The translations under genes and the position numbers were made by a program. A stretch of DNA of 64,000 bases, from NCBI RefSeq assembly GCF_002723935.1, contig NZ_BEWM01000006.1:62001-126000 (forward strand). Reading direction: 5' to 3'. Each line of letters begins with the position of its first letter. The stretch's first letter is position 1. Origin of the DNA: Gluconobacter cerinus. Lineage in GTDB: Bacteria > Pseudomonadota > Alphaproteobacteria > Acetobacterales > Acetobacteraceae. Below are positions 40,949 through 61,953 of this stretch, in pieces. The notes under the pieces were generated by a model. That model was given only the letters and a program-made list of their open reading frames with translations. It did not search any database and was not told the DNA's origin.

Positions 40949-41634
40949 TATTTGCTCACCTTGGCCCAGCCGGTTATGCCGCTGGCTGCCGTTTTTTCAA
41001 TTGTTTGGTAAATTACGTGGGCATCAGCGGCGTGCCCCAGCGCTGTCTCCACGAAGAACTGTCCACCGTGCCGGCTGCCGTATCGCAACCCTGCGCTACC
41101 ATATCCATAACCTCCACCACCGGCAGGAGCGGCAAGTGATGCCAATGCATGGCAATCCGCTGCATTCAGAGGTTCGAGAATAGTGGGCGCGACACCCGTG
41201 ACTGACAGCAGCGCGTTGAAAACAGACTCACGCGTATTCTTTTGCGCCACCAGAGAGGACACGATACGGGTGCGATAGTCCCTGTCCAGCTCCGAAGTGC
41301 GACGCGTTAAACCAGCCGGTCCAAAATAATCAGCCGCCAACATATCCAGAAATGGGCCACTCATCGTTATGAGGCGTGTCTGCTTCTGACATTCATCAAG
41401 TAATGTCCATATTCCAGCCAGAACGGCTGAAAATCCCCTCAGAACAGCGACAAGAACTGGTGCAGTTTCCTCTTCCAGATCTTGAGGCGCTGCTGGGAAC
41501 CAGCCGACAGGCAGAAGGCTTCTCAACCTCGACGCAAAATCATCGACTGATCCAGGAACCACCCCCGTATCCAAAAGAATTTTCCCATCAGTCGCCTGAA
41601 AGACCAATTTCTGACGGTCGTACAATCTGGCCAT
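40948..41634 (-). CDS. Baseplate/tail protein in the gpI position
   Basis: 228 residues, no signal peptide. The central segment (LRGFSAVLAGIWTLLDECQKQTRLITMSGPFLDMLAADYFG, then DRDYRTRIVSSLVAQKNTRESVFNALLSVTG) resembles the phage tail protein I / Mu gp48-like baseplate proteins, which link the baseplate wedge to the fibre. The C-terminus adds a short Gly-rich stretch. The position directly before the tail fibre supports the call. Confidence 0.6.
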   Translation of the reverse strand: MARLYDRQKLVFQATDGKILLDTGVVPGSVDDFASRLRSLLPVGWFPAAPQDLEEETAPVLVAVLRGFSAVLAGIWTLLDECQKQTRLITMSGPFLDMLAADYFGPAGLTRRTSELDRDYRTRIVSSLVAQKNTRESVFNALLSVTGVAPTILEPLNAADCHALASLAAPAGGGGYGYGSAGLRYGSRHGGQFFVETALGHAADAHVIYQTIEKTAASGITGWAKVSK

Positions 41635-41637
41635 GCT

Positions 41638-42876
41638 TCAACCTCCAGCCTGCTCTGGAGTCATCAGCGGGATACGATAATCCGTTCCATTGACGCTGAT
41701 ATGCAAAAAGCCTCCCCCCACTGTGGCGGGAAGTGTGCCTGCCGCATTCGTTACCGGGGAAGAGATTTGCAACTGCCCTCCCTCTTCCGGAAACAAACCA
41801 AGGTTTGACGATCCGTTTTCGCCACTTTGCACATACAGACCAGCCGCCTGAGTGCCTGCCCCAGGTTGGACCTGCAACGTGTTGTTGGGTGCCACAGCAC
41901 TTGCGACTGAAAACAGTGTCTGTCCTTCGATATTGCTGAACAGAATTCCATTATCGACAAAATCCTGTCGTACGCCCTTGGAGCGCTCTGTCACGGTAGA
42001 ACGGACAAATGCTCCAACATTACCACCAGAGACCCCACTAACAACTTCCGGCGTATGCCACTCCAGAGCATGATTACGCGCAAGAGACAGGGCAGAGGCA
42101 TATCCATTATCTGTCCCGTTTGTGCCGCTTAAAGCCGTCGCGCCGAAAACAATACCGACCTGCCAGGCGTCAGGGTTTGAAACAAAAACGACCCCCGCAG
42201 CAGCATCGGAAGTACCCGAAGTCTGACCACCACCCGCACCGAGCTGAATGCCATAAACACCACCGCCGACATTGGGGGCATAAGGCGTAGACTGACCAAT
42301 CGCCAAGCCACCAAAATTGACCGCTTCAAGTTCCATGACGAAAGTCGGTTGATAATTCACACCAGCCAGGCGCCACGCTTCTCCATAATAAGCGTAGGCT
42401 GTCGTGGTCGTAGGTGCAGAAATGTCATCAGCGACACCCCATGACGCAATGCCGATCGTACTTGGTTGAAACCCCAAAGTATCTGGTGCCGTTTTTGCAT
42501 CAGATGTCCGGGACGCTGCTACAAAAGCACTATTACCAAACTGGGCTACCGAGGCACATTGCGCGTCCTGCAAGGCCCAGGGCCCAATCGAGGTGGCTCC
42601 CATTGTCTGGGACAGCCAATCGTTTTTAGATGCTGCATCCCGATCGCTCAGTCCCGGATTAGCGGCAGCATCCCCGATCAGAACACGATCAGCAAAACGG
42701 CTGATTTTTGCTCCTTTATCCTGATAGAATGCCCCACTCGGCTGGGAAACTGCTGGAGCACCTGCAATCTGGGAAGCCGTTGCAGTAACGGTTTGATGAC
42801 CGCTGGAATCTGCCAGCACCAGAACTTCATCGCCCGTCAACGTATCAAGCCGCGGGTATGTATTGAAAACAGGCAT
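41638..42876 (-). CDS. Fibre-like phage structural protein
   Basis: 412 residues beginning MPVFNTYPRLDTLTGDEVLVLADSSG, the N-terminal pattern common to phage fibre, spike and head-fibre proteins. The rest is Gly/Ala/Ser/Thr-rich and predicted beta, without transmembrane segments. It lies between the J- and I-type baseplate genes, where P2-like phages have no gene. It has a strong ribosome site (GGAAGG). It may be a second receptor-binding or decoration protein; no specific family is recognised. Confidence 0.6.
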   Translation of the reverse strand: MPVFNTYPRLDTLTGDEVLVLADSSGHQTVTATASQIAGAPAVSQPSGAFYQDKGAKISRFADRVLIGDAAANPGLSDRDAASKNDWLSQTMGATSIGPWALQDAQCASVAQFGNSAFVAASRTSDAKTAPDTLGFQPSTIGIASWGVADDISAPTTTTAYAYYGEAWRLAGVNYQPTFVMELEAVNFGGLAIGQSTPYAPNVGGGVYGIQLGAGGGQTSGTSDAAAGVVFVSNPDAWQVGIVFGATALSGTNGTDNGYASALSLARNHALEWHTPEVVSGVSGGNVGAFVRSTVTERSKGVRQDFVDNGILFSNIEGQTLFSVASAVAPNNTLQVQPGAGTQAAGLYVQSGENGSSNLGLFPEEGGQLQISSPVTNAAGTLPATVGGGFLHISVNGTDYRIPLMTPEQAGG

Positions 42877-42920
42877 AGCCTTCCTTCTGCCCCGATACAG
42901 TTAGCAGGGGGCCTGTTTGG

Positions 42921-44060
42921 TCAGTTCTGAAGAACGTTGATCTGAATTGTGCCGACTGTCAGTGCCTGCTCGCCATTCGCAGCAATATCGGCTTGCCCGC
43001 CATTCAGGCGGACATCCAGAACGGAGGTAACCGTCACACCGGCCCCGACATACGCTAGATATGACAGACGGCTATAGGCATAACCTGCACCAACTACTGC
43101 GCCTGCAATGTCCAAGCTAAGGGCATTCTCAATCGCTGTTGCAGCCTGCTGAACCACAACCGACATTGGCACGACGACTGTCATGGACACATTAACCGCG
43201 AGCGTCTGGGGAGGTCTGACGGCAAAGCCGACTCCCAAGGCCCGAACAACGTCAACAGCCTCATAAACCTGTGTCAGGAGCGCGTCCGATGGCGAGCCAC
43301 TTCCATCATTCACGACGACCGTAAAATACCCGGTCTGCACAGTTCCATCAGCCGCAACGCCATCTCGAAGCGAACTCGATAATCCTGTCTGAACACCCGC
43401 AACAGCATTCCCGACGGCTGCTCTGCACCCAGATGCTTTTGCAGCAAGCCACAGAGGAAAACGCGCACGGAGCTGTGCATCCGTTTCCTGATCTGCACCG
43501 TTAAGAAAAGCCGCTGGATTTGTAACAGTATCAATGCCTGAGATAGCTGTGCCCATCAGACAGAGCGCACCGACAGACACGTTACCATTTGATCCTGCAA
43601 CCTGACATTGAACTGGAACCGATATGCTCTGCATGTCCGTCTGCCGAACATACCCGCCTGCAACGTCGGACCAGACAGGCAGATTGCTATCTTTGATCAC
43701 TGCGAATGACAGGCCGGAAACAGTGCGGACAATGGCTCCTGGCACAATCACTGCCGATTGCTGGGATGGCGAAAATGACATCATCGTCACCATCCCGGTC
43801 GATGCCGTTCCAGGTAAACGCATCATCCCGAAATCTTCTACAAAACTGTCGCAATCCTCAGCAGAGGATGTTGCCAGACGTGTGCGGAGCAAGGTTTGTA
43901 AAATAAGATATTGCAGCCATAATCCTATGCCACCGACACCTTCCATCAGTGCCCGCACGGGCGATCCAACAGAGCCATCCAAAAGCTGCGCACAGGAAGA
44001 CTGCGCCGTCGCCACGGCGGTGGAAACCGTCGTAGCAAACGAGCGAAGAGAAAGAGACAT
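42921..44060 (-). CDS. Baseplate protein J (gp47-like)
   Basis: 379 residues. GADQETDAQLRARFPLWLAAKASGCRAAVGNAV is the conserved core of the baseplate J/gp47 family, preceded by the beta-rich domain VIVPGAIVRTVSGLSFAV. It forms the baseplate wedge of contractile tails. The start codon follows GGAGG. Confidence 0.88.
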   Translation of the reverse strand: MSLSLRSFATTVSTAVATAQSSCAQLLDGSVGSPVRALMEGVGGIGLWLQYLILQTLLRTRLATSSAEDCDSFVEDFGMMRLPGTASTGMVTMMSFSPSQQSAVIVPGAIVRTVSGLSFAVIKDSNLPVWSDVAGGYVRQTDMQSISVPVQCQVAGSNGNVSVGALCLMGTAISGIDTVTNPAAFLNGADQETDAQLRARFPLWLAAKASGCRAAVGNAVAGVQTGLSSSLRDGVAADGTVQTGYFTVVVNDGSGSPSDALLTQVYEAVDVVRALGVGFAVRPPQTLAVNVSMTVVVPMSVVVQQAATAIENALSLDIAGAVVGAGYAYSRLSYLAYVGAGVTVTSVLDVRLNGGQADIAANGEQALTVGTIQINVLQN

Positions 44061-44102
44061 TACGTCCTCCGGAAGCGCAGAACATAGCTCTGCGCTTCTT
44101 GT

Positions 44103-44462
44103 TTAGGCGGAAAAATCCACTGTTTGCTGCTGCCCCGTGTCAGCATCGACATAGGAGATATGGCAAAGGCAAAGCCCGTTATCGGCAGCACTCACAGTCA
44201 CATCAACAGAATGACCGGAATCAACTCCAGGGTCCTTGATAACCTGCACCCGAATAGCAGCTTGCATGACGGCCGGAACAACGACTTCCCCAACCATGCT
44301 TTGCAGACCCACCCCGTATTCCGGCTGCCAGATGTAATCACCAGGATTGGTTAACAAGCGCCTTAAAAGCCTCTGGCGTGTTTCGTCAGCCCCGGAAATA
44401 ACCTGTAAGCCACCGTTCTCCAGCAGCAGATCACCGCCACACAAATGACTGATGGCACTCAT
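44103..44462 (-). CDS. Baseplate wedge protein W (gp25-like)
   Basis: 119 residues with TRQRLLRRLLTNPGDYIWQPEYGVGLQSMVGE, the signature of gp25/W lysozyme-like baseplate wedge proteins. It initiates sheath assembly at the baseplate. It overlaps the V-type gene start/stop by four bases. Confidence 0.82.
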   Translation of the reverse strand: MSAISHLCGGDLLLENGGLQVISGADETRQRLLRRLLTNPGDYIWQPEYGVGLQSMVGEVVVPAVMQAAIRVQVIKDPGVDSGHSVDVTVSAADNGLCLCHISYVDADTGQQQTVDFSA

Positions 44463-45082
44463 CCAACAGGTCCCCCTGTCGTCTGGCTACCCATCAGATG
44501 TACGTGCTGCGTCAACGAGTGCTGATCTGTTTGAATATCGCCACCAGAAACCTTCAGACCATTTGCAGAAAACGCAGCCGTTACGTCGCCTATCGTCAGT
44601 GAAATACCACTCTCTGCAATATGTAAGCGCGCATTGCCTGCCCCTAGGATAACCCCGTCAGAGCCAATCTGACACCAACCAGCCTGAGGATTTACATCAC
44701 CAACCTTGCCGTTTGTATCTGTTGGAGGTGCACCGCACCCTGCCCTGATCAGCATGGTCCCTGGCTGAATAGCCTGCCCATCAGAGGGAGAGACGGGCGC
44801 AGTCACAACCGTGTCAAAAACAGCCCCAATAGCAATCAGATGCTCACCATCCCCTTCAAGGGGTAACAAGGCAACGTGGGTCCCTGGTTCAGATGGACAA
44901 GAAACACGCAGATTTCCGGCCTGTACGCCCCCCACATCAGGTATCCAACCAGTTTCCACATTGTCAGGCTGGATACGAACCTTGATGGCATGGTTCGAAG
45001 GATCAACTGCGGACACAATTCCAAGGACAGCGTGTGCGCTTCGGTTCGCAAGGGCGGCAGCTAGCATTCGCGTATCACTCAT
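44459..45082 (-). CDS. Baseplate spike protein V
   Basis: 207 residues. An OB-fold segment (AVLGIVSAVDPSNHAIKVRIQPDNVETGWIPD...PSEPGTHVALLPLEGDGEHLIAIGAVF) is followed by a repetitive beta-helix-like tail (ARLHIAESGISLTIGDVTAAFSANGLKVSGGDI), ending with HVHLMG. This is the layout of gpV/gp45 baseplate-spike proteins that pierce the outer membrane. Confidence 0.82.
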   Translation of the reverse strand: MSDTRMLAAALANRSAHAVLGIVSAVDPSNHAIKVRIQPDNVETGWIPDVGGVQAGNLRVSCPSEPGTHVALLPLEGDGEHLIAIGAVFDTVVTAPVSPSDGQAIQPGTMLIRAGCGAPPTDTNGKVGDVNPQAGWCQIGSDGVILGAGNARLHIAESGISLTIGDVTAAFSANGLKVSGGDIQTDQHSLTQHVHLMGSQTTGGPVG

Positions 45083-46140
45083 GCCCCACTTCTCCGGCTA
45101 CGCAAAACCACATGCTGAATAAATCCATCATTCACAGAAAATCGGGAAACAACCTGATCCACACCCAGCGTCTGCTCCGTTGTCCCCAGTGAAATCTTTA
45201 TAAATTGCCGCGGGCGCAGCCTTATAATACCAGGCATTGAAATACGGACTGACATTGCATGTGCAGAAATACGCTCATACTTACCACGAGCCAGCCGACG
45301 CAGATCTTCCAAACGACGGCCCGGCACACGAAAGCTGTGGAGTACAGTCACACCTGATGGTGCATCCTGGGAAAATGTTTTGCCATCATAATAAATATGC
45401 GTACTGCTTCTCTGTCGAGAATCCCAAGATGCCATATGCACCACAATACCCGTAAGCAATTGAAGATCTCGAGAAACATCTGTCTCGAATACGGCATTTC
45501 GAACATCAATAATTTCAGCGGTGTCGTCATTTACGTAAGACGGCTGACAGACAAGCGTTTTCCCATCCGCATAAAGATCACACAACGCATCCCTCGCAAC
45601 GGCAAAGGCCAGATCTGCCGCCGTCTGAAAGCGATGCTGTGACAGAAGGGCCCCCCTCTTATGCTCTACTTGCCAAAACTGACCCATCATATGGTCAGAG
45701 CCATCGTCAGGAAGCGAAATCCGGGCCGCAAGTGCTGCGCTTCTGGCAATATCCTGCAGCAGATCAGATCCCGTATGGTTAAGCCAGGAATTCTGCACGC
45801 GAAGGTCTATAAGTGCCGCAAGAGCATCCCGACACTCCATTTCGACAAGAGAATGCTCGTCCACATTCCGGACGTGATCTGCACGCCCTTGAAATAGAAT
45901 AGTCCATCCTGAAGAAATTTTAGTGTCCTTGATTTCAACAGAAATCCACGGGCTTGAAGCTGTATCTTGTTCAAACCAGAACGGTGCCTCTCTGACCCTC
46001 TGCCTCTTTATTGCGAACGTCAAAACTGCCGTATCGCAAGACTCATATCTATTAGAATCCAGTTCGAAACTTTTAAGCGCAAGATCCGGATTTTCTATTC
46101 CATCCCATAAAATTCGAACTTCGATCTGGCGTGTGGTCAT
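45079..46140 (-). CDS. Baseplate hub protein D
   Basis: 353 residues, mostly beta, resembling gpD/gp27-type hub proteins (phage late control D family). It follows the X-type gene with an ATGA overlap and precedes the V-type spike gene, which is the normal X-D-V order. Segments such as VEMECRDALAALIDLRVQNSW and SFRVPGRRLEDLRRLARGKYER fit the family's pattern. Confidence 0.7.
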   Translation of the reverse strand: MTTRQIEVRILWDGIENPDLALKSFELDSNRYESCDTAVLTFAIKRQRVREAPFWFEQDTASSPWISVEIKDTKISSGWTILFQGRADHVRNVDEHSLVEMECRDALAALIDLRVQNSWLNHTGSDLLQDIARSAALAARISLPDDGSDHMMGQFWQVEHKRGALLSQHRFQTAADLAFAVARDALCDLYADGKTLVCQPSYVNDDTAEIIDVRNAVFETDVSRDLQLLTGIVVHMASWDSRQRSSTHIYYDGKTFSQDAPSGVTVLHSFRVPGRRLEDLRRLARGKYERISAHAMSVRISMPGIIRLRPRQFIKISLGTTEQTLGVDQVVSRFSVNDGFIQHVVLRSRRSGA

Positions 46141-46346
46141 CCTCCCTCCTCATTGGGAAGCCCTGATGAGAACGTAAGGCCTTTCATCGGAATTTTCAGG
46201 GGTTGGACTGTTTCAACTTTGCTTAAATCTGGATCTGATAGCCCATTGGTCTGAGCAATTCTCCACCACTGGCAAGCATCTCCCAGTTCACGCGCGGCAA
46301 CATGAAACAGCGAAATATCAGCTGCCGTTACAACAATACTTTTCAT
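46137..46346 (-). CDS. Tail protein X (LysM-like)
   Basis: 69 residues: MKSIVVTAADISLFHVAARELGDACQWWRIAQTNGLSDPDL... then a short KIPMKG. The size and the ADISLFHVAARELGDACQWWRIAQ helix pair are like the small LysM-type tail protein X of P2. The position before gene D supports this. Confidence 0.7.
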   Translation of the reverse strand: MKSIVVTAADISLFHVAARELGDACQWWRIAQTNGLSDPDLSKVETVQPLKIPMKGLTFSSGLPNEEGG

Positions 46347-46352
46347 AATTCC

Positions 46353-47270
46353 TCACGCGTGCACTATCGGCAATTGCCCGGAAGCACCTTGAGAACCACG
46401 GACATACGCCAGAGAATGATTAACCAGACCGCCAGTATCTGATGCTGCACTAAGCAAACCGGCACTCCCGGCAACTGCACCCAGAGACGATGTATCCGCA
46501 ATCGCGACACTTTCCAGATTGCTTCCTGTGCTCTCCATGATGGACATCAACCCACTCCCCGCGGTCGTAAGCTGATGGGATATCGCTGCCATACCGGACG
46601 GAGTAGCCGCAAGATTAGAACCACTCTGACTCAAGGTATTTGCCATACCCAGAGCATCAACAACCTTGGCCGCAGCTCCCCCCGCCCCTACTAAAGTGGC
46701 CAATGGCATAAGCTGGCCTACGATGGAATTAACTTGCCCAGTGCCTGTAAAAACGCCTTCCGAAATACGCGCTACCATATCTGAAACAGTCTTGAGCCCA
46801 CTCTCAGTATCATTTCCTAGAATGCCTGTGAGTGAACTTTGGTCTGTCCCAAAATCAGTGGCTTCCGCTGGCCGTTCCAACGTCAGTTCATAGGAGCAGA
46901 CAGCCCCCTTCGCTTCATATGAATAAACAAAGCGAGCAATCCAAACATCACTTGCCATACCTGCCGCAGAAAAAGCGACAGGCTGGCCCGAAATCCGCAT
47001 CCGCTCCACGGCTTGCGCTCGGACCTGTGCGTTCGGCCCTAAAAAACGTCCTCGCAATTCCAGTCGGCCAGGATCGTTTCCAAGCGTATCAACAACACGC
47101 TCGCCTCCGGGAAGCCTATGCACGACCATCATTTGATGGCCACCAACCTCAAGTCGGTCAGGAACTTCAATACCGCTCAGTACAAGTGAGCCAAGGGTAA
47201 CCGGTGCAGACGTCCCTAAACGGCCGATGGAACCGATAACGTTTTCAATGGCAGAGAGCGTTACACTCAT
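46353..47270 (-). CDS. Tail protein, DNA-circularisation (Mu N)-like
   Basis: 305 residues. The N-terminal half (LGNDPGRLELRGRFLGPNAQVRAQAVERMRISGQPVAFSAAG...YELTLERP) resembles the U/N tail proteins annotated as DNA circularisation N-terminal domain. The second half is Gly/Ala/Ser-rich and helical. It lies between the tape-measure slot and protein X, the usual site of this component, which joins tail tube and baseplate hub. Confidence 0.65.
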   Translation of the reverse strand: MSVTLSAIENVIGSIGRLGTSAPVTLGSLVLSGIEVPDRLEVGGHQMMVVHRLPGGERVVDTLGNDPGRLELRGRFLGPNAQVRAQAVERMRISGQPVAFSAAGMASDVWIARFVYSYEAKGAVCSYELTLERPAEATDFGTDQSSLTGILGNDTESGLKTVSDMVARISEGVFTGTGQVNSIVGQLMPLATLVGAGGAAAKVVDALGMANTLSQSGSNLAATPSGMAAISHQLTTAGSGLMSIMESTGSNLESVAIADTSSLGAVAGSAGLLSAASDTGGLVNHSLAYVRGSQGASGQLPIVHA

Positions 47271-47288: not shown

Positions 47289-48164
47289 TCATCCAATTCC
47301 AATGCTACAACCTGGATATTGGGGAAATTGAATTTCATCGACGCCTCCCGTTGCACGTCGCGCAGAAAGACGGCTCATTTTTCCAAAACCGCTTATGTCT
47401 TTGCGCTGCTCTTCACCCAAAGGGGGCATTCCTGATCGGGAGGAGTGAAATGTGTGGGGTAAGGTATTTTCTTCAAATTCAAGCTGCCGTATCCGCCCCA
47501 ATTTTCCCAACGATATTGGAAGGAACTGTGATGAAATTTCTGAACAACCTTCCGGGTCTCGCACACCAGATTTTAGAACAGGGACAGACCGGGTATTGAT
47601 TGCTGACTTCCAAATATCAGGGCGAGAACCCGCTAAATCTGGCGTATTACGGGAAAAAACATGAGGTGCCACGCGGCAGTGCTGCCCCGGGCTTCTTGCA
47701 GAAAAAAAATTCTTCGCCGGTGAGGCCGCGCTTAATCTTCCCGGCTTGATAAAAAAATTTTCCGTGCCGCCCAACTGCATATCATCGCGAATTTTTTGCG
47801 ATACAGCTTGGCCAGATTTCTCCAATTTAGTTTGCAAAATATGCACGATACTTTCTTGCTTAGGCCCGATTTTAAAAATGCTGCTTTTATTTCTTACAAG
47901 CTCTGGAGCGTTTTCTAATATGCCTTCGACATGTGTCTCAGGCACACCTTCCGAGAAGTAAAAGCGCCCAACTGACGTCGCGCGAGACATTAAAGAAGCC
48001 ATCGATAATTTCGGGAAATCCAAATTTCCTTTTTCGCGGCTCTTAACAAAACTCACTGTGGGAATGACAGCCGTCCTTCCCTCTAGCAAAGATCGTCGCA
48101 ACACGTTCAGGGAAAACAACATTCCTGACGAAAGAACGCCTTTCCACAATTTATCCGTATGCAT
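47289..48164 (-). CDS. Gene in the tape-measure position, unrecognised
   Basis: 291 residues. It begins two bases after the stop of the frameshifted tail chaperone, where the tape-measure gene sits in almost all long-tailed phages. The protein has no transmembrane or long coiled-coil stretch, is rich in Ser, Arg, Lys and Phe, and its DNA is clearly more AT-rich than its neighbours. If it is the tape measure, the usual proportion of about 0.15 nm per residue gives a tail of only about 44 nm. Alternatively it is a cargo or degraded gene that replaced the tape measure. Confidence 0.55.
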   Translation of the reverse strand: MHTDKLWKGVLSSGMLFSLNVLRRSLLEGRTAVIPTVSFVKSREKGNLDFPKLSMASLMSRATSVGRFYFSEGVPETHVEGILENAPELVRNKSSIFKIGPKQESIVHILQTKLEKSGQAVSQKIRDDMQLGGTENFFIKPGRLSAASPAKNFFSARSPGQHCRVAPHVFSRNTPDLAGSRPDIWKSAINTRSVPVLKSGVRDPEGCSEISSQFLPISLGKLGRIRQLEFEENTLPHTFHSSRSGMPPLGEEQRKDISGFGKMSRLSARRATGGVDEIQFPQYPGCSIGIG

Positions 48165-48166
48165 GC

Positions 48167-48340
48167 CTATTCTCGGTACTGTCTTTGGTCCCAGTCAAAG
48201 ACATGACCTGCACGCTCTGCCGTCACAACACACGCAGCCATCCGCCTTGCGCGAGACCACGACTTCAACAAATTCCATGGCACCCCATGATCCAGAAGGT
48301 AAAGCATCTCCTGAAACGCAGAGTGCCTACTCAGTTTTTT
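48167..48340 (-). CDS. Programmed -1 frameshift extension of the tail chaperone
   Basis: The heptamer A_AAA_AAC (48340-48334) lies in the proper reading phase at the end of the 106-codon gene, directly before its TGA. Shifting back one base continues as KLSRHSAFQEMLYLLDHGVPWN, later WSRARRMAACVVTAERAGHVFDWDQRQYRE, and stops with TAG at 48169-48167, two bases before the next gene's ATG. The fusion would be about 161 residues. This is the G/GT (E/E') chaperone pattern of long-tailed phages. The W..L..W..ARRMA and FDW content looks coding. Confidence 0.88.
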   Translation of the reverse strand, partial: KKLSRHSAFQEMLYLLDHGVPWNLLKSWSRARRMAACVVTAERAGHVFDWDQRQYRE

Positions 48341-48651
48341 GCTGTAGCGACCACCATCTCTTCATCAGTATCCTGATGAAAACATGGATAAAGCACTGCA
48401 ATTCCACCTTTGCCGATACGGCGCGCCAGATCACGAATTTCTTCTTTCGTACCCGGCATCTGCACTGGAACACCGTCGATAGCCGTAACTGAACAGATCA
48501 TTTCCGCATAGCCCAACCATGCAGCAGCCGAAGCACCAGTCACAGCAGAGCCTGCCGCCTCAATCAGATCCAGCATATCCGCAGGATCGATCTCTTTCAG
48601 AGAAAGACATCGTCCATCAGCAAGACGAACTTCTTTCGGAAGCATACTCAT
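48331..48651 (-). CDS. Tail assembly chaperone, short form
   Basis: 106 residues (MSMLPKEVRLADGRCLSLKEIDPADMLDLIEAAG...) overlapping the tail-tube stop by ATGA. Size, location between tube and tape-measure slot, and the frameshift site at its 3' end identify it as the gpG/gpE-type chaperone that coats the tape measure during tail assembly. Most ribosomes would make this short form and a minority the extended form. Confidence 0.82.
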   Translation of the reverse strand: MSMLPKEVRLADGRCLSLKEIDPADMLDLIEAAGSAVTGASAAAWLGYAEMICSVTAIDGVPVQMPGTKEEIRDLARRIGKGGIAVLYPCFHQDTDEEMVVATAKN

Positions 48652-49073
48652 GAAATCTTTGCCCTCGTTGATGCAAAGAACTGCACCGTTTGATGAACCA
48701 TCTGATCCGACTGCCAGGCATCATTTTTCAACTTGATAGACACGTTCGTGTACTCCCACGTACTTGTCGTGCCATCAGGCTCTGTCACATACTGGTAAAT
48801 TGTACCGCTCCCAACCGTTCCAGCATTCCAGTAAGCAGCTTCAATAGCAGCAACCAGATTGTCCAGCGCCGCACTAGCACGTGCGATCTGAAACGAACCA
48901 CGCCAGCCATTCGGGACATTGAACTCGACTGGCATGCCATTAAGCGGACTTGCTCGCAGAGCATGCGTCTCCTGTGATGCCCCGAAAGACGTGACATCAC
49001 GCAAATCAACCCGCTGGCCGTTCCAGAGAACTGTAATCCGGCAGTCGCGACCAATACTATAAGGATTTGCCAT
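48648..49073 (-). CDS. Tail tube protein
   Basis: 141 residues beginning MANPYSIGRDCRITVLWNGQRVDLRDVTSF, with a beta-rich body and GTTSTWEYTNVSIKLKNDAWQSDQMVHQTVQFFAS. It follows the sheath gene by two bases, the standard sheath-tube order of contractile tails, and is the size of phage tail-tube proteins. Confidence 0.8.
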   Translation of the reverse strand: MANPYSIGRDCRITVLWNGQRVDLRDVTSFGASQETHALRASPLNGMPVEFNVPNGWRGSFQIARASAALDNLVAAIEAAYWNAGTVGSGTIYQYVTEPDGTTSTWEYTNVSIKLKNDAWQSDQMVHQTVQFFASTRAKIS

Positions 49074-49075: not shown

Positions 49076-50560
49076 TCAGACGCTCCCGCCCGCAGTCGTC
49101 ACCGTCACGGAGGTGCCGCCCTGCAAATTCACCACAAATTTTTCATTGATGCCTTGGTACCGCACAGCCACGTCAGCCTGCACATATCCCAACGCAGTCC
49201 GCGACTGGGGATTATTCGAACTATCGCAAACAACACGGTAAGGCAGTTCAGAATTCTGAACACCCAAAATACCTTGAGACAACAAGGACGACAGGAAACC
49301 CAGCAGGGTCGATCGAATGTCGGAAAAGAGCGTGTCATTCACGACCTGTCCGACATACGCTCCCATGCCACCAGCAAGGGATGACGCAATATAATTGGTC
49401 AGACGGGTATAATTATCTCCATTTACCGTCGCTTTACTTGACGTATTGTGCCCACACCGTACTGCCCAGTAAGTCCCGCCCGGCGCAGGATTGCAGATAA
49501 CATCGATCCCAGCCGTAAACAGTGTAGATAGCTCGGCCGTGGAATAGGTTGCGCTGCTGCCCCCTAAGCCTGCCTTTTGGCTTCCAACAATACCCGAAAG
49601 TGCTTTATTCAGGCTCGACTGTTCAGGTGAAAGTGCAGAAAGAATGCCTGCAGCAAATGCCTGAGGGCTGACAAGCATCATGCCATTAACGTCATCGTTC
49701 CACCAGATCCAGTCACCGAACATCAACTTTACGGCTGAAGAATCCAGACCGCTGGCGGCTTTGACGGACACTGCATTGCTTACACTGTCATATGCAGGGC
49801 TTGCCGTCACCATATAGACCCCTTCACCGAGGCCAAATGCCGCCTGCGACGAATAGCACGCGCTATCTGTCACGCCATGAAGGGTGGCAACGGCACATCC
49901 CTGCCCCCTCAGAGCATACATACCCGTCCGAATGATATCGTCTTTTCCTAGAAAAGCCGACGTATCAGGCGTCCCACCATCTAGTCCTCCAGACAGCGTC
50001 ACGCTTCCGGGAACAGGATCAGGAACTGCATCCGGCAAATGGATCGTCACCAGAGCTGACAGATCCTGCGCGACAGCGGCTTCCAGGATGTTCCATGTCG
50101 CACCTGAATAAGATGCTGCTCCAAGAACCGGATGCGAAACTGCCAGCCCATAACCCGCCCCCGTTGCGGTCAGGGTCACAACGATAGAATTACCAGCAGC
50201 GCCGGTATGAACAGCACTAAGTGTAACGCCTCCCAAAGAGGCCGTTGCGTTTGCATCCGTTCCATCTGTTACACGCACGACAACGAACGATGACGCCCCT
50301 TGCAGAGCCGCAATATTTACAGCCAGCCCTGCATCCGTCGTTTTGTTCTGCTTACTCCCAAAAGCAGAGAGATAATCACTCATGCCACCCACAGGCACTG
50401 GAAGCCCTACCGGGCCCCAGCCTGCCGTTCCAACGATACCCAGCTTCGATGAAGAGGCACCCGTCAGTCCCAGCGGTTGTGGCTGCGCAATCTGTACATA
50501 AAGGTTAGGAACCGTAAGCGCAGTCGTATTCAGCGTACCCGCCTGATAAACCAGAGACAT
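49076..50560 (-). CDS. Contractile tail sheath protein
   Basis: 494 residues. The start PNLYVQIAQPQPLGLTGASSSKLGIVGTAGWGPVG...SFVVVRVTDGT and the C-terminal VNLQGGTSVTVTTAGGSV are typical of the phage tail sheath family. The presence of this gene shows that the particle is a contractile (myovirus-type) one. It has a strong ribosome site (GGAGGAA) and an AT-rich leader. Confidence 0.9.
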   Translation of the reverse strand: MSLVYQAGTLNTTALTVPNLYVQIAQPQPLGLTGASSSKLGIVGTAGWGPVGLPVPVGGMSDYLSAFGSKQNKTTDAGLAVNIAALQGASSFVVVRVTDGTDANATASLGGVTLSAVHTGAAGNSIVVTLTATGAGYGLAVSHPVLGAASYSGATWNILEAAVAQDLSALVTIHLPDAVPDPVPGSVTLSGGLDGGTPDTSAFLGKDDIIRTGMYALRGQGCAVATLHGVTDSACYSSQAAFGLGEGVYMVTASPAYDSVSNAVSVKAASGLDSSAVKLMFGDWIWWNDDVNGMMLVSPQAFAAGILSALSPEQSSLNKALSGIVGSQKAGLGGSSATYSTAELSTLFTAGIDVICNPAPGGTYWAVRCGHNTSSKATVNGDNYTRLTNYIASSLAGGMGAYVGQVVNDTLFSDIRSTLLGFLSSLLSQGILGVQNSELPYRVVCDSSNNPQSRTALGYVQADVAVRYQGINEKFVVNLQGGTSVTVTTAGGSV

Positions 50561-50644: not shown

Positions 50645-51622
50645 TTAATGGCTTTGACAGACGACAGTCCCAAACTGATTGACCATCATTCCCGGATATG
50701 AATTCTGAGCTGCCTGAGAAGTTTGTGCAGCCTGCATTGCCTCAAGAGCATGCAGAACCACACTATTATCAAAAGCAGGCTCGATTGCGCCGAAACTGCT
50801 AACCTGATCACCAGCAGAAACAGTCCCGGCCCCAAACATCATGTCAGACGACCACTGAACCTGCAGGGTGTCAAAAACCAGCTCGTACAAATAATCCCGT
50901 CGATACAATGCTTGATTTTGCATCGTATCGATGTCCTCAACACTCACGAACCTAAGCTGTGCCTGCCGGCCATCCAACGTAGAAATCCAGCTCTTCTCAG
51001 CCAGCTCAGTATCCAGAAACTGTCCAAGCGTATCCCGAACACCAGAATCAGCCGTCCAGAGCGAAACCCTATACCGCTGATTCTGTCGGCGGTTCACCCT
51101 TACGGACTGGCCATAGCCAACAACGTTTCCGGCTAAGTTATACCCCGGAACCTGCACAGAATTTTCGTCTGCAAGACCTTTTGGGAGTTGCCCGGCCAAA
51201 GCCAAAGCTACAGTTTCAGGAGTGTCCTGCTCAGTCACGGCATAGGCGGCAGAAATCTGAGTTTTCCCAGCCTCGTACCAAACACCGACAACACCTGAAG
51301 GCACCCCATCAGAAGGAAAAGCAATGCAAACAGCTTGCGCACTCTGCTTCACTGACACCGTGGGCAGAACACGCGCCTGAACCTGCCAGGGGCGCCCCAA
51401 AGGCTCTGGCACAACAACACCTTTCTGAGGTGCCAGTGTGACCGTCAGGAAATCCGTATTGTTCCGAATATTTTGAGCTGCAAATATATCACTCGGTAAA
51501 AGCCACCCGCGACGAACGATCGTCTGCCGTCCCGTTACAGACGGCTTTTCGAGGCCTTCTGGATATAAAATTCCCGCACACACATAAGCCAGAGCCAATC
51601 CGACCTGAGAAGCATCCGCCAT
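50645..51622 (-). CDS. Phage neck/tail completion protein
   Basis: About 325 residues from ATG 51622, which has GAGGAGAG upstream; the longer open frame runs into the previous gene. The protein is mixed alpha/beta (YVCAGILYPEGLEKPSVTGRQTIVRRGWLLPSDIF..., RYRVSLWTADSGVRDTLGQFLDTELAEKSWISTLDG...) with a polar Gln-rich end. Position between the connector and the sheath gene suggests a neck or tail-terminator role; the family is not recognised. Confidence 0.6.
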   Translation of the reverse strand: MADASQVGLALAYVCAGILYPEGLEKPSVTGRQTIVRRGWLLPSDIFAAQNIRNNTDFLTVTLAPQKGVVVPEPLGRPWQVQARVLPTVSVKQSAQAVCIAFPSDGVPSGVVGVWYEAGKTQISAAYAVTEQDTPETVALALAGQLPKGLADENSVQVPGYNLAGNVVGYGQSVRVNRRQNQRYRVSLWTADSGVRDTLGQFLDTELAEKSWISTLDGRQAQLRFVSVEDIDTMQNQALYRRDYLYELVFDTLQVQWSSDMMFGAGTVSAGDQVSSFGAIEPAFDNSVVLHALEAMQAAQTSQAAQNSYPGMMVNQFGTVVCQSH

Positions 51623-51632
51623 TTTTCTCTCC

Positions 51633-52265
51633 TCAGACCTGTTGCAGAGACATGGTGCAACGCAAACCCCAGTCCGACATCTCGGCAGCATTAATCGTGT
51701 ACGTCGTATCCAGGTCCGTCGTGACCGTCATATAGGGTTGCAACACGATGCCCGGCAGCCGCGGTAAATACATGACAAACTGCCCAGGCTTGGCTGAGCC
51801 CGGAATGCCACTCCCAGACCCCTCTCCTTTAGACCGCAAAACAATCGCAGCAGGACATTCCTCAACGATGTTCCCTTGCGTCCCAGAAACGCCACTGATC
51901 TCCACAGTCCGATTACATGCCACACACAGCGGAGGTCGAAGGTCATCCACTGCCGCAACAAAAAACGTATTTCCCCCGCAAGTCAGAATATCTCCGACCA
52001 CAGTATCTTCACGGCAATCCGTAAGCACATATTCCATAACCCCACCCCAATTGGGGGATCGGGAGAATGTAAAGTCAGCACTCGAATCAAAAGCGAGCAT
52101 CGGGTGTGCATAAATATTTTGCATGGGAGACAAGGGATTATCCGGCCGGTATTGCTCTCCGGAGTGACCTAAAATCCCTGCCGCTTTTGCATACCCTCGA
52201 CAAAGTCTGGACGCGATCTGTTCCGCCCGCATCATGCCCCCTTCAGATGATGACCAATCGGCCAT
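51633..52265 (-). CDS. Phage head-tail joining protein
   Basis: 210 residues. MRAEQIASRLCRGYAKAAGILG at the N-terminus (from the ATG at 52235 or with the ATG at 52265 as annotated) is helical; the rest is beta-rich (VVGDILTCGGNTFFVAAVDDLRPPLCVACNRTVEISG). Its place two genes after the capsid is that of head-completion or adaptor proteins. It overlaps the end of the preceding gene. Confidence 0.6.
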   Translation of the reverse strand: MADWSSSEGGMMRAEQIASRLCRGYAKAAGILGHSGEQYRPDNPLSPMQNIYAHPMLAFDSSADFTFSRSPNWGGVMEYVLTDCREDTVVGDILTCGGNTFFVAAVDDLRPPLCVACNRTVEISGVSGTQGNIVEECPAAIVLRSKGEGSGSGIPGSAKPGQFVMYLPRLPGIVLQPYMTVTTDLDTTYTINAAEMSDWGLRCTMSLQQV

Positions 52266-52644
52266 CCTGCAATTCCAAACCGCCTGTCACCCCGAGAAAC
52301 GCGCATAAACGCCGACGCCATAACGTCAGAAGCATCACGCGATCACGCACTTCATGACCGTTGTGATACCAACTCGCAGCCTGTGCCGTATCCAGATTTT
52401 CAGATGCCCCCAAAAGAGCCGTTTCCAACGGGTAAAGCTGTGAAAGGTACAAACGCACCTGCTGCAGTTCTGCGCCAGATAAGCTGTTAATCCGCCATTC
52501 CAACGCTCCCTCAACCTGAAAGAAGCGCCAGGATTCCTGCCCTGTCTCCCGCGATCCAATTGCCGGATACCCGCAAAATCGCCGAACATCGACCTTTTCG
52601 CCGTCCGTCAATGGACCCGAGGACAGGCTTGCAGTCCCAGACAT
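52243..52644 (-). CDS. Phage head-tail connector protein
   Basis: About 133 residues from ATG 52644, which follows GGAGGAGGATTAT, an unusually strong ribosome site. The protein is mostly helical (SLSGAELQQVRLYLSQLYPLETALLGASENLDTAQAASWY) and small, as expected for connector proteins directly after the major capsid gene. The next gene overlaps it by 23 bases. Confidence 0.65.
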   Translation of the reverse strand: MSGTASLSSGPLTDGEKVDVRRFCGYPAIGSRETGQESWRFFQVEGALEWRINSLSGAELQQVRLYLSQLYPLETALLGASENLDTAQAASWYHNGHEVRDRVMLLTLWRRRLCAFLGVTGGLELQDGRLVII

Positions 52645-52664
52645 ATAATCCTCCTCCACCAGAA

Positions 52665-52690
52665 GAACCCCCATGGAATCATGGGGGTTC
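52665..52690 (-). terminator. Hairpin behind the major capsid gene
   Basis: GAACCCCCATG (52665-52675) pairs perfectly with CATGGGGGTTC (52680-52690) around GAAT, 11 bp. On the minus strand it lies upstream of the capsid gene's stop-side neighbour: transcription passes the connector start after it. No clean T-run follows, so it is probably a weak terminator or RNA-stability element separating capsid from connector. Confidence 0.5.
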
Positions 52691-52699
52691 GAAGTCAGC

Positions 52700-54079
52700 T
52701 TAGAAGGTCATGCCAAGTGCATCCGTGCCCAGGCTCTCAATGATAACGCCACGCTTGAGATAGCTGTTCGTCGCCGTGGGAATAACGTTTGTATCTGCCG
52801 TCACATCCGTCGGTAGCGCGAAACCCCCAATCCAGTACCAGGACTGAGCGATAATCTGGCGCAGTCGATCCAGTGGCTCACGCGTCACCATTGCAACCCC
52901 ATCCACCATCTCAATCAGTGCGCGATCAGCGTCTGGGATGTCCGAATGGCCGGTCAGCGCACAGTCACCCTCGATCAGAGCCCCCTGACCCAACAGCAGA
53001 GCACGATGAATAGGACCGGCACCAAGAGAAAGCTGCTGAGGGGCCTCTGTTGTCGGAATAAATCGAACACCCAGAAGTTCAATCACCTGCCCGGAACGAT
53101 ACTCTTCCGAACCATATGCTCCCCGATAAAGATGCTTGAAGTCATCGTCACGGAACAGCGATAGAAGCTGAATATCATCCAGATAACAATGATATGCCCC
53201 ATTGATCATAGGAACGTTGTTACGGCGAAGCGTCGCAACACCAGCCAGAACCTGCTGAATACCCAGCGTATCCGCGAGACCGTTTGCACTCGCCGTCTGT
53301 AGAGCTGCCGTCGTCAGACGGCCATTCGGACGGATCACCTTCGGTGCCGTTGCCGCAACCACCGGCTGCCCAACGGCACCATCCGCGACAGACACGCTGG
53401 CGGAGAATGTCATCTGCCCGGAAATTCCGCCCGGCGCCGTAGAAACATTGGTCGCGTCAGCTACCACGCGCACAAGCGTGTACACATCCGAACCAACTGT
53501 CACAGTCATGCCATTGCTGGATCCAATCAGCGTAACCTGACCATTAACGATGACGGACTGAAATCCCCGAATGTCATCAACCTGAATGGTGTCGCCTTCA
53601 GCATCAAGTGCAACACTAACGCGCGTATTGCCACCCAGATAACCACCTACTCCATTCTGAGCTCCACCAAACAGCGTATTGCGCGCCAGCCGATCCAGAG
53701 ACTGCATGGCCTGAACACCATTTGTATTGGCATTTGCAAGAAACTGCGATGCAATCCCGACACCACTCGTCACCATATTCAGATCAATCGTGTCGCCATA
53801 CTGATTGATCGAAAGAGTGTATTGCTCAACAGACCAGCCAGCAGGGCTCATTCCATTATCGAAGTTGGTATTGCCCGTTGGATTCAGCGGTGTCGTAACA
53901 GGAGCCTTCAGACTCTTACGCGTCTTGGTAAGAGTCTCACCAATAGCGTTGGGGAAAATCTCGCGATCAGCAACCTGTCGAAATCCCATTCGAGATTTGA
54001 GGCCGTTTTCAAACTCCCGTGCCAGAAAACCCTGCTGAATAGCGGCCTGAAGCTGAACTGGAAAATTTTCGATGCTCAT
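52700..54079 (-). CDS. Major capsid protein
   Basis: About 459 residues from ATG 54079 (MSIENFPVQLQAAIQQGFLAREFENGL). The layout is that of HK97-fold capsids: N-arm, then an inserted beta-rich domain (GQVTLIGSSNGMTVTVGSDVYTLVRV...), and a C-terminal half with LFRDDDFKHLYRG and ELLGVRFIPTTEAPQQ. It follows the scaffold gene and precedes a hairpin, as expected for the most highly expressed head gene. The ATG at 54088 is a possible earlier start. Confidence 0.85.
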   Translation of the reverse strand: MSIENFPVQLQAAIQQGFLAREFENGLKSRMGFRQVADREIFPNAIGETLTKTRKSLKAPVTTPLNPTGNTNFDNGMSPAGWSVEQYTLSINQYGDTIDLNMVTSGVGIASQFLANANTNGVQAMQSLDRLARNTLFGGAQNGVGGYLGGNTRVSVALDAEGDTIQVDDIRGFQSVIVNGQVTLIGSSNGMTVTVGSDVYTLVRVVADATNVSTAPGGISGQMTFSASVSVADGAVGQPVVAATAPKVIRPNGRLTTAALQTASANGLADTLGIQQVLAGVATLRRNNVPMINGAYHCYLDDIQLLSLFRDDDFKHLYRGAYGSEEYRSGQVIELLGVRFIPTTEAPQQLSLGAGPIHRALLLGQGALIEGDCALTGHSDIPDADRALIEMVDGVAMVTREPLDRLRQIIAQSWYWIGGFALPTDVTADTNVIPTATNSYLKRGVIIESLGTDALGMTF

Positions 54080-54155
54080 GAATGTCATTCCGTAAATATT
54101 TATGAAAAATTCCGGCATACTTGGCCGGTCAAATATTTAATTCACTGTCGCGCTA

Positions 54156-54644
54156 TCAAGCACGGGCCAGAAACTGCCACTTGCGCGCTTCGTAATCAGC
54201 TTCAGTAGCTGCGCGCGCATCAAAAGGTTCAATGCCGCCAGGCTTCGGTGCCGGGTACCCAACCGTTGTGCCACTCGAATATCCGGGCCGCACAATTTCT
54301 CCGAACAGATATGCACGCTCCTGCCGCGCCTGTTCCAAAGCCTCAATCACTCCCACAACCGCGCCATCCTCAGTGCGGGTAACACCGCCCATATCAATCA
54401 GACGAACAACATCTTCAGGATTATACGCGCCCAAACGAACAGCCTCTGACCGCAGAGCCGCAACCATGATTTCACGGTCACTTTCCTGCTTCACACGAGA
54501 CACAATTTCCTCATGCGATCGCTGCAGATCTTCCTGCCGGGCAACAGCATCCGCCATTTCCCGACGAACGGATTTGACCTCATCCTGCGCTTGAGCAAGC
54601 GCCTGACGAAGAGCCTCCACACCCTCAATAGTTTCTTCAGACAC
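54156..54644 (-). CDS. Capsid scaffolding protein (GP20-like)
   Basis: About 162 residues. GTG 54644 has GGAGGG at 9-base spacing. The N-terminal half is a charged coiled coil (LRQALAQAQDEVKSVRREMADAVARQEDLQRSHEEIV), followed by SEAVRLGAYNPEDVVRLIDMGGVTRTEDGAVVGVIEALEQ, which resembles the phage minor structural GP20/scaffold family. It lies between portal and capsid. A GTG at 54671 overlapping the portal stop is another possible start. Confidence 0.75.
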   Translation of the reverse strand: MSEETIEGVEALRQALAQAQDEVKSVRREMADAVARQEDLQRSHEEIVSRVKQESDREIMVAALRSEAVRLGAYNPEDVVRLIDMGGVTRTEDGAVVGVIEALEQARQERAYLFGEIVRPGYSSGTTVGYPAPKPGGIEPFDARAATEADYEARKWQFLARA

Positions 54645-54667
54645 GGATATTTTCCCTCCGTTCAACA

Positions 54668-56086
54668 TCACGCCTCATCCGACGCAACCCACTGTTCAAG
54701 CACACGCCATTCTGCCCCGGGGTCAGAATTTCCAGATGCCGTCGCATACATTCTGACAGCCGTCTCTCGGCTTAAAATCCCGTTGGAAACAGCCGTCACC
54801 AGCCCCTGCGACAGAGACAGAAGCTCCGGATCCGTTGCAGGGAACCAGGCGGGCCACCTCAATGCCATGCGACAATAAGGGAGGTCTTTCACCAAAACCC
54901 CACCCAACCGCAGACCGTTTTCCAGCACACAGGAAAAACGGCAGGCCATTCGGTAAACAGCCAAAAGCCCATTCTCGCCATAAGAATGCCGCAGCCGATC
55001 CACCAGCCAGATCAGAGGCTGGCACATCATTTCCATGGCCTTGCCAGACTGCACGCCTGAAATCCGATCGCCATGCGCTCGATTGCCGTGCAGTTGCTCC
55101 AACGCAATTTGCCGCAGTTCCCGATAGTGCTCGAGCACTGCCCCTGCAGCATTGCCGTTAATTTCCAGAAGCTTGGCATCCCCTTCAGGAGGCAACGTCA
55201 GAGCCGACGACGCTCCGCCTTGGTGAGCCACACCATCCGAAAAACCTCCAGTTTTCAAAACCAGCGTCGGATCAGAGCCATATTTCAGACCTCGCCCAGC
55301 CTGAGACAGAAGGTAATCCGCCTCAATGACCGTATCGATCGCCCGTTCAAAAGTGCATTCCCCTTCCGGGTCACGCCCATGTACACCACCCAGATTGCGG
55401 ATCCAGATAATCGGTACAAAACCCAGCCCATGGCGCACGGACCGGCTTTCATCCCGAACCCCACCGTCCATACCGACAAGCCAGGGTACGGAAACTGCGC
55501 AATCCATTGGTGTCCAAATCCGCTGCCACCAGAATTGCGCACCCAACAGATCTTCACCAATTGGATAACCCTGCGCAGCAAGATCCCGGCCTCGAACAAG
55601 AAACTGCTCCTCAACACGCAAAAGCTCGCCACTAGCATCATCCCAGACCGGCGTCAGATAAGCCGTATCGAGAACCGAAAGCTTCGGCACGCCGGCCGAC
55701 ACCTCAAAAAGAACCACCACAGAGCCAATGGAACCACACGTTGCGGCCTCCATCATCAGTGATGCTAAACGCGTCTGTGCGGCGAAAACACTCATGGCTT
55801 CCGCAACTCGCACATCATCCGTAATCAGACTGGGCCAGTGCGTATCGCCAAAAAGCAACGAGACGGATTCATCGACAACCGTTCGGCATAAATTGCTCCG
55901 GACAGATGGTCGTCTATTTGAAAGCGGAATGTATTCCCCCGCCCCTGATCGTTCCAGCGAGAACGGATGAGGCAAGGCATCATATTGCGTACCGTCCAGA
56001 ACGCGCCTTAACGCCAGCAGGCGTGCTGTGCGCGCAGACGCACCCGCCGGCACGGCATACCGCCGTTGCAGGGACAACCAGTCCAT
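54668..56086 (-). CDS. Portal protein (SPP1 gp6-like)
   Basis: 472 residues. The wing region has TAYLTPVWDDASGELLRVEEQFLV, the stem/crown LEINGNAAGAVLEHYRELRQIALEQLHGNRAHGDRISGVQSGKAMEM resembles the SPP1 gp6 portal family. The portal forms the dodecameric DNA channel at one capsid vertex. It lies directly after the large terminase. Confidence 0.85.
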   Translation of the reverse strand: MDWLSLQRRYAVPAGASARTARLLALRRVLDGTQYDALPHPFSLERSGAGEYIPLSNRRPSVRSNLCRTVVDESVSLLFGDTHWPSLITDDVRVAEAMSVFAAQTRLASLMMEAATCGSIGSVVVLFEVSAGVPKLSVLDTAYLTPVWDDASGELLRVEEQFLVRGRDLAAQGYPIGEDLLGAQFWWQRIWTPMDCAVSVPWLVGMDGGVRDESRSVRHGLGFVPIIWIRNLGGVHGRDPEGECTFERAIDTVIEADYLLSQAGRGLKYGSDPTLVLKTGGFSDGVAHQGGASSALTLPPEGDAKLLEINGNAAGAVLEHYRELRQIALEQLHGNRAHGDRISGVQSGKAMEMMCQPLIWLVDRLRHSYGENGLLAVYRMACRFSCVLENGLRLGGVLVKDLPYCRMALRWPAWFPATDPELLSLSQGLVTAVSNGILSRETAVRMYATASGNSDPGAEWRVLEQWVASDEA

Positions 56087-56128
56087 GAATTCTCCAATGC
56101 TAAAGCCCGCCTGCAGCCTAGAAGCCGG

Positions 56129-57875: not shown

Positions 57876-57903
57876 TTGTCCATTCCCCTCCCGACTCTGA
57901 GCG

Positions 57904-58338: not shown

Positions 58339-58355
58339 TAGAAACTCTTCCAAAT

Positions 58356-59283: not shown

Positions 59284-59305
59284 TCTAACTTCCTTCATGC
59301 TGCAA

Positions 59306-59335: not shown

Positions 59336-59360
59336 TAAGAAAAAAAACTTCTTCTGGATT

Positions 59361-59373: not shown

Positions 59374-59389
59374 TTGCTAAAAAGGCCAC

Positions 59390-61832: not shown

Positions 61833-61953
61833 AGTCACGACAGTCTTTTACCATCAGCATCCTCCAGAAGCAGCGCCTCAATGTGCATCTCCTGCCGAGA
61901 CAAAACGTTTTCAGTCCTGTCAGCCTCTCAATCGCTACATCAGGACGCAGGAC

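Follow-up and report, generated by a model that had tools for sequence, protein, structure and literature searches.

The window, i.e., the entire stretch of 64,000 nucleotides of Gluconobacter cerinus DNA that was analyzed, contains a compact cluster of virion genes that occupies about 19 kb, from 39.7 to 58.4 kb. The cluster and all features described below are located on the minus strand. The head module (50645..58353), assigned with PHROGs and Pfam, is composed of genes for the major head protein, a scaffold-like protein, a portal, the large and small terminase subunits and one unnamed protein, together with three proteins placed in head-tail joining by position only. It is followed by the contractile tail sheath (49076..50560; phrog_23 tail sheath, E 2.4e-44) and by a putative tail tube (48648..49073), which is so designated by its position between the sheath and the chaperone-like gene and matches phrog_12993, labelled as function unknown (E 2e-43). 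The tail tip module (39692..47270), also based on PHROGs and Pfam, consists of genes for a 305-residue and a 69-residue protein without assigned function, hub-like, OB spike-like, sheath-initiator/gp25-like and baseplate J proteins, two proteins without a named function and a glycine-rich fibre. Beyond the head module is the flanking host gene dnaB for the replicative helicase (60318..61838; Pfam DnaB_C, E 1.9e-100).

When the 24 larger minus-strand ORFs at 39692-59950 were scanned against PHROGs, no integrase, repressor or replication gene was found, and the only recombination-like match was a weak one of the small terminase to the transposase phrog_157 (E 2.5e-4). No tRNA was detected at 38000-62500. 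The conserved stretch between dnaB and the cluster (59285-59950) had Ks lower than Ka in two pairs and is probably not coding in the scanned frame; several Ka/Ks rows for 59285, and those of two pairs for 57904, are based on few aligned codons and are meaningless.

The gene in the tape-measure position (47289..48164, 291 codons) has a low-complexity, hypervariable sequence, and it matched no PHROG, Pfam or NCBIfam family. It was readable in 24 of the 26 genus genomes, with a length of 254-310 codons. Its Ka/Ks is 0.41-0.64, and its product is 45% identical between genomes G000 and G023, compared with 84-100% for the immediate neighbours. The protein is seemingly basic and carries short repeats in some species, and its C-terminal tail is conserved (GGVDEI..PQYPG.SIG in most of the sequences printed). 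On one reading, this gene is a ruler whose length alone is under selection.

Between the putative tube and the tape-measure position is a gene for a tail-assembly-chaperone-like protein of G/E type (48331..48651). Its zero frame runs from the ATG at 48651 to the TGA at 48333..48331, comprises 106 codons (106 residues) and ends in GCA AAA AAC TGA. These last codons contain the slippery heptamer A_AAA_AAC (48340..48334), which is in the zero-frame phase and has the TGA directly 3' of it. After the heptamer, the -1 frame continues as CTG AGT AGG CAC and so on to a TAG at 48169..48167. This extension (48167..48334; the T/E' part) has 55 codons past the Asn codon in addition to the TAG, and the fusion of the two frames would have 161 residues. 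The ATG of the next gene, at 48164, lies two bases past the TAG. The first-pass annotation had described a heptamer in zero-frame phase directly before the stop of a 106-codon gene, and a -1 frame of about 56 codons that ends two bases before the next ATG; its coordinates and lengths are correct.

The same annotation had considered this arrangement unlikely to occur by chance, which is an overstatement for a single window. We defined loosely similar sites as X_XXY_YYZ heptamers (Y = A or T) at most 30 nt from the end of an ORF of at least 60 codons and followed by 50 or more open codons in the -1 frame. Four such sites occur in the window, and one of them, the chaperone site, is flush with the stop. 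Ten triplet-permuted windows gave 19 of them in total, i.e., about two per window, as well as 11 flush heptamers with any extension length, and we estimate that a flush site with a long extension is expected at about 0.2 per window. Since such a count leaves chance possible, the case was rested on comparison with relatives. The sequence of the window by itself is a lead, and conservation is what establishes the frameshift site.

Homologues of the zero-frame protein were found in 30 of the 60 genomes searched (its own genome included), and further in 27 viral contigs, two Komagataeibacter phages and 27 named genome contigs, mainly of Gluconobacter and its neighbours. In all 86 loci of close relatives (72 distinct), a slippery heptamer adjoins the stop. 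It is AAAAAAC in 70 of the 72 and GGGAAAC in two. Cluster genes from the genus and from four relatives use the codons of this site in a minority of cases (GCA for 16% of Ala, AAA for 39% of Lys and AAC for 33% of Asn), and the near-uniform AAAAAAC of close relatives in spite of this background was counted in favour of a slip site.

We then used a profile of the -1 extension. At E 0.01, 129 of 299 Acetobacteraceae genomes had matches, which were weak and partial only in four of the 129 (G217, G251, G257 and G278); the 125 solid genomes represent 49 of 102 genera by hand count. Six weak places (E above 0.005) among the 149 listed were left out of the heptamer count, which covers the 143 places with extension matches at E 3e-4 or better (130 + 2 + 11 loci). 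An in-phase slippery heptamer is present at the junction in 136 of them. In four others (L228, L230, L418 and L421) it occurs solely further upstream, at 12-51 nt, and in three (L223, L229 and L419) there is none near the junction. The pattern that the first-pass annotation had named as contrary evidence, a lost heptamer with the frames left unfused, is seen in one locus, L223, against the 136 that keep the heptamer; L229 and L419, which are remote or decayed, likewise have no heptamer near the junction. L229 has stops throughout the zero frame and looks decayed.

In the subset of 130 loci, the heptamer is GGGAAAC in 64, AAAAAAC in 59 and AAAAAAA, AAAAAAT or GGGAAAT in one each, and four have none at the junction. 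Of the 126 loci in this subset with the heptamer in place, 116 have a flush stop and 10 a later one (+18, +21 or +39). Since the encoded dipeptide changes from Lys-Asn to Gly-Asn while the site stays slippery, selection on the peptide is a poor explanation of this conservation. Upstream of the extension, the two remote homologues L418 and L421 carry C_CCT_TTG in phase, which is possibly a third kind of slippery heptamer or a chance occurrence.

The extension is a coding sequence under purifying selection. Mean column identity over 15 diverse sequences is 53% in the extension and 52% in the zero-frame part, and the Ka/Ks of the extension is 0-0.12 in eight hand-chosen pairs of close species. 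Directly after the slip, 68 of 114 representatives encode exactly LSRHP, and most others a sequence close to it. A search of viral contigs with the extension profile returned 10 stretches that fit the pattern, of which none was kept and nothing was confirmed. In one locus (L248, genome G018), most of the zero-frame chaperone domain has been lost in-frame, while the start, the heptamer and the extension have been kept; this locus is a natural near-minimal frameshift cassette.

An alternative is that the downstream frame constitutes a small gene in its own right, with its own start and translated by reinitiation or coupling without any frameshift. The records of the phages phiKX1 and phiKX2 (LC644975 and LC644976), in which the frameshifted gene was deposited as two separate hypothetical proteins, are annotated in this way, and an ATG, GTG or TTG is present within the first 17 extension codons in 80 of the 114 representatives. 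However, the remaining 34 have no such codon, and the commonest candidate start position is common to only 21 of the 114. Because conservation begins at LSRHP, right after the slip, and 34 representatives lack a start codon, reinitiation is not a general route to the extension; moreover, the conserved phase of the heptamer would serve no purpose in a separate gene. We consider this explanation very improbable.

The first-pass annotation could not see a further element, which strengthens the frameshift claim: a probable stimulatory RNA hairpin (48279..48327), supported by folding and covariation, whose outer stem pairs 48327-48319 with 48287-48279. The stem begins 6 nt past the heptamer, i.e., 12 nt from the first P-site base. 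The hairpins of dnaX and HIV are reported to hinder A-site binding only when located 11-12 nt from this base (PMC7282821). In the window, the hairpin folds with -23.6 kcal/mol (z -3.19). In the 114 representatives, the region +5..+65 after the heptamer has a mean z of -4.30, with 99% below -1, compared with -0.47 for +5..+45 and -0.31 for upstream control folds. The site has the parts of a canonical bacterial -1 signal, i.e., an X_XXY_YYZ heptamer, a 6-nt spacer and a stable downstream structure. By base composition in the same representatives, G is frequent at positions -8 and -9 upstream of the heptamer.

With the first heptamer base as 0, positions 13-21 pair with 53-61, and an inner helix of 23-25 with 49-51 often extends further inward. 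In the alignment of 114 sequences, the 12 stem pairs are formed in 92.0% of cells, compared with 36-51% after a shift of one side by 1-3 columns, although these controls favour the model somewhat, as it was built from sequences of the same family. Seven of the 12 pairs have double changes (62 double-changed cells), and none of 500 shuffles, which keep relatedness, reached the stem in any of five measures. In a 19-pair version, 75.3% of cells are paired, compared with 40-52% when slid. RNAalifold on the 114 representatives gave eight stem pairs only, and the pair-by-pair count of the symmetric hairpin is more informative.

Codon choice within the stem follows the pairing bases. We compared it with cluster genes from the genus and from four relatives as background, and with the 60 nt upstream in the same 114 sites. 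The stem Gly codon is GGG in 106 of 113 sequences (26% in background, 30% upstream), the Val codon is GTG in 112 of 113 (39% and 54%), the His codon is CAC in 101 of 109 (19% and 63%, the latter from 30 codons only) and the Pro codon is CCC in 78 of 101 (12% and 25%). At Pro codon 60, which has its third base beyond the core stem, all four codons are used freely.

Among 151 distinct signals of the family, taken from loci whose heptamer is in place and not including the 11 last-read loci, 147 form at least seven of the nine core pairs. The hairpin is absent in four, L227, L231, L232 and L234. In L231, a different six-pair GC-rich hairpin folds after the heptamer. Viral contigs provided a further set, as they were chosen by a DNA pattern of the heptamer and the 5' arm, without the 3' arm, which occurs in at least 120 stretches. 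Among the 80 matches listed, 78 contigs were tested after L321 and L325, from the same contigs as L069 and L070, were dropped, and the covariance model matched 77 of these 78, 76 of them at 60 bits or more; L308 matched at 28 bits only and L331 did not match. The 78 contigs correspond to 73 distinct sites, four of which were already family loci, leaving 69 new ones. In these 69 sites, again among the matches listed, a model-free reading found at least eight of the nine core pairs in 66, the hairpin being absent as aligned in L308, L319 and L331, and a -1 extension of at least 45 codons is present in 68. In the model-fitted viral alignment, 95.6% of cells are paired. Two of its five covariation measures fell within the shuffles (double-change pairs, 154 of 500; pair types, 16 of 500), because the viral sites are so alike.

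A class-wide search with the model found the signal in two of 385 genomes, both of Acetobacteraceae, under stricter filters that weak relatives may escape. Rfam gave no match to the frameshift signal, nor any within 38200-62500 of the window, and no report of the hairpin was found in open-licence PMC papers.

Together, the conserved heptamer, its phase, the extension and the hairpin bear out what the first-pass annotation had proposed, -1 frameshifting at A_AAA_AAC in a tail-chaperone-like gene. On this comparative evidence, we hold it highly probable that two proteins are made from the gene through programmed -1 ribosomal frameshifting at this heptamer; very likely, it is a G/GT-type tail chaperone that undergoes such frameshifting here. 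In the proposed mechanism, most ribosomes would read A_AAA_AAC and stop at the adjoining TGA to give the 106-residue chaperone, and the flush TGA would end this major product without extra residues. With AAA (Lys) in the P site and AAC (Asn) in the A site, the strong hairpin would be at the mRNA entry and would cause a pause. A minority of ribosomes would then slip, simultaneously or sequentially, to AAA AAA and continue into CTG AGT AGG CAC and onward, yielding a minor 161-residue fusion. Both the pause and the slippage to AAA AAA are steps that we infer. Our guess for the efficiency is a few per cent, on the order of the 6-7% measured in HK97-like tail chaperones, a related class (PMC3711429). 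In E. coli, A_AAA_AAC is described as less shift-prone than A_AAA_AAG (PMC5009743).

Two other ways of joining or separating the frames were considered. The run of six A within A_AAA_AAC could allow transcriptional slippage by RNA polymerase, which would join the frames in the mRNA, but six A is a short run for polymerase slippage, 64 of 130 family places use G_GGA_AAC, with no long run, and neither the strict codon phase nor a hairpin at ribosomal spacing would be expected; this explanation is exceedingly improbable. That the gene is a decayed remnant, a dead prophage gene split by a frameshift mutation or a sequencing error, might be suggested by G008, which lacks the region, and by the in-frame deletion inside the zero frame of G018, but it can be dismissed almost entirely, since the same split with a slippery heptamer recurs in all 86 loci (72 distinct) and across the family, and the extension Ka/Ks is 0-0.12.

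Programmed frameshifting also bears on what the protein is. The zero-frame protein corresponds to phrog_20383, labelled as function unknown in PHROGs (E 1.3e-15), and matched no Pfam or NCBIfam family, tail-chaperone families included; Pfam searches with 60 family members gave scattered single matches. Sequence searches of PDB with the zero-frame and extension profiles returned only rows at E 0.28 or worse. The predicted structure of the zero-frame protein has a pLDDT of 88.8. In the PDB list, the HK97 tail chaperone 2ob9 was second, a weak match (Foldseek E 0.70) with a weak superposition (VIA Z 4.0, rmsd 4.9 over 86 residues). A viral structure library gave a phage protein without a named function at rank 1 (E 1.7e-5) and a tail assembly chaperone at rank 2 (E 0.053). 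The predicted fold is at most suggestive of a likeness to tail assembly chaperones. The assignment as a chaperone is made because of position and frameshift, not fold: the gene comes directly after the sheath and the putative tube, and the next gene, without a family match, is in the tape-measure position. By analogy to lambda G/GT and P2 E/E', the short form would coat the tape-measure protein and the extension would recruit the tail-tube protein, which are the roles described in lambda (PMC5009743); the chaperone function and these partners are presumed from this analogy.

The first-pass annotation had also called the gene a prophage tail chaperone. The tail-chaperone-like part of this description stands, whereas the prophage part finds no support in a cluster that keeps its place across the genus and in other genera and evolves with its host. 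The major head gene is single-copy in all 26 genus genomes (Neokomagataea included) and 86-100% identical. In four of them the match contains a stop at match residue 6-13, and because this stop precedes the probable start, just downstream, these genes are unbroken there. In 24 of the 26, the head gene and dnaB share a contig and are no more than 15 kb apart; the exceptions are G006, where dnaB is about 100 kb away, and G017, where the contig breaks. The dehydrogenase that flanks the other side is within about 16 kb of the head gene in 18 genomes, and in the other eight it is 38-40 kb away or on another contig, or no close homologue was found.

Insofar as homologues could be traced, an initial set of nine genomes has an identical gene order. 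The cluster is bordered by host genes on both sides in G023, G007, G016 and G005 and on one side in G012, G006 and G033, while in G031 and G026 neither a flank nor a complete gene set was found. The same compact cluster occurs in loci of Brytella, Tanticharoenia, Asaia, Acidomonas and Ameyamaea, and in the first three of these, some of the same host genes adjoin it. For 14 of the 26 genus genomes, those in which the stretches holding the dehydrogenase and dnaB were whole enough, element and host protein distances were strongly correlated (Mantel r 0.969, p 0.0001), and the two trees were similar, not identical. Most cluster genes have Ka/Ks of 0.01-0.2. Alone among the 26, G008 (L264-L265) yielded no tube, no chaperone and little of the sheath, and the head genes are kept; G008 and G018 show decay of the cluster.

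One species has a second, divergent copy of the phage, on contig 4 of G013 (L285-L286). The distance from the tube to the homologue of the 305-residue protein is about 13.7 kb in this copy and 7.7 kb in phiKX1, and 1.3-1.4 kb in the genus cluster (1.1 kb in G018).

There is some support for the alternative view of the cluster as an ordinary mobile prophage, incidentally carried by Gluconobacter species. The related phages phiKX1 and phiKX2 (60% identity) are reported from mitomycin-induced strains (PMC8566455), there are longer viral contigs (such as L066, L069-L071 and L075), and the divergent copy on contig 4 of G013 points the same way. In the same publication, the A. orleanensis phage is the only one for which no integrase is reported, and phiKX1 is rated as incomplete and phiKX2 as questionable (PMC8566455). 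Against mobility are the single-copy head gene in every genus genome, with dnaB and the dehydrogenase so often close by, some of the same host genes beside the Brytella, Tanticharoenia and Asaia loci, the correlation of element with host over 14 taxa and the absence of any integrase family among the 24 ORFs scanned. Presence is not sporadic, nor is the insertion site variable. A mobile prophage is accordingly unlikely, the label "prophage" is doubtful, and the cluster is better described as a probably domesticated one of phage origin.

We read the cluster, from these genomic comparisons, as one apparently old insertion that was domesticated and inherited vertically, and it looks like a domesticated contractile-tailed element. 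Because it appears to be vertically inherited, tail assembly from the cluster is probably still under selection. A fuller account would be that acetic acid bacteria have an ancestral, vertically inherited contractile-tailed virion cluster near dnaB, GTA-like or otherwise domesticated, whose frameshift signal is kept because tail assembly matters to the host and whose ruler gene keeps its length and little of its sequence; we give this account an even chance of being right.

Apparent vertical inheritance and purifying selection, as expected of a gene transfer agent (GTA), were both found. Known GTAs are described as having a small terminase without a detectable DNA-binding domain (PMC11841831). 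The small terminase of the cluster has a sub-threshold helix-turn-helix match (HTH_28, E 0.017, 15.6 bits with a cut-off of 25), which, if kept, would speak against a gene transfer agent. The Gluconobacter proteins GOX1212 (portal), GOX1215, GOX1222 and GOX1224 were listed in 2007 among Acetobacteraceae signature phage proteins (PMC2241609) and may be candidate members of the same cluster. No report on the virion element was found in open-licence PMC papers.

Frameshifted tail chaperones are already known, and what is distinctive here is the nearly always conserved signal. As in lambda gpG/gpGT and P2 E/E', the -1 slippage would occur near the end of the first frame and produce a short form and a fusion (PMC5009743), from a gene flanked by that of the putative tube and by the one in the tape-measure position. 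Unlike lambda and P2, the protein here matches no Pfam or NCBIfam tail-chaperone family, the heptamer is A_AAA_AAC or G_GGA_AAC with the stop mostly flush, and a strong hairpin is conserved. In the SEA-PHAGES training set, slip sites are reported to be on average 26 nt from the stop (PMC10885494). The tail genes of the haloarchaeal viruses HCTV-1 and HCTV-2 have the same two heptamers, G_GGA_AAC and A_AAA_AAC (PMC5009743), but here both interchange within one homologous family. E. coli dnaX likewise has an A-rich heptamer, a 5-6 nt spacer and a hairpin at the mRNA entry (PMC7282821). The A-site codon differs, being AAC here and AAG in dnaX. The dnaX frameshift shortens its protein, whereas here the shift would lengthen the chaperone protein.

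Among the closest systems are phiKX1 and phiKX2, whose homologous chaperone genes share the heptamer, directly followed by TGA, and continue in a -1 extension; phiKX1 also has homologous sheath, head and other virion proteins. In contrast to the cluster of about 19 kb, these phages are about 53 kb and have many genes between the chaperone and the baseplate, including a 743-codon gene that was taken to be in the tape-measure position. The chaperone family itself had been without a Pfam or NCBIfam match, under a PHROGs label of unknown function, and split into two hypothetical genes in two phage records. Its signal is unusually legible, with swapping heptamers, a usually flush stop and a covarying hairpin at dnaX spacing, and it therefore offers a clean natural series for how the heptamer, stop and hairpin set frameshift efficiency.

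Finally, the cluster resembles RcGTA of Rhodobacter capsulatus in being a compact head-tail cluster with vertical inheritance and purifying selection. It differs from RcGTA in its contractile sheath. In 62 genomes of the host order, Acetobacterales, 0 RcGTA-like clusters were counted (PMC6821227). The larger point is the apparent presence, throughout a genus of industrially used bacteria, of a domesticated contractile-tailed particle.
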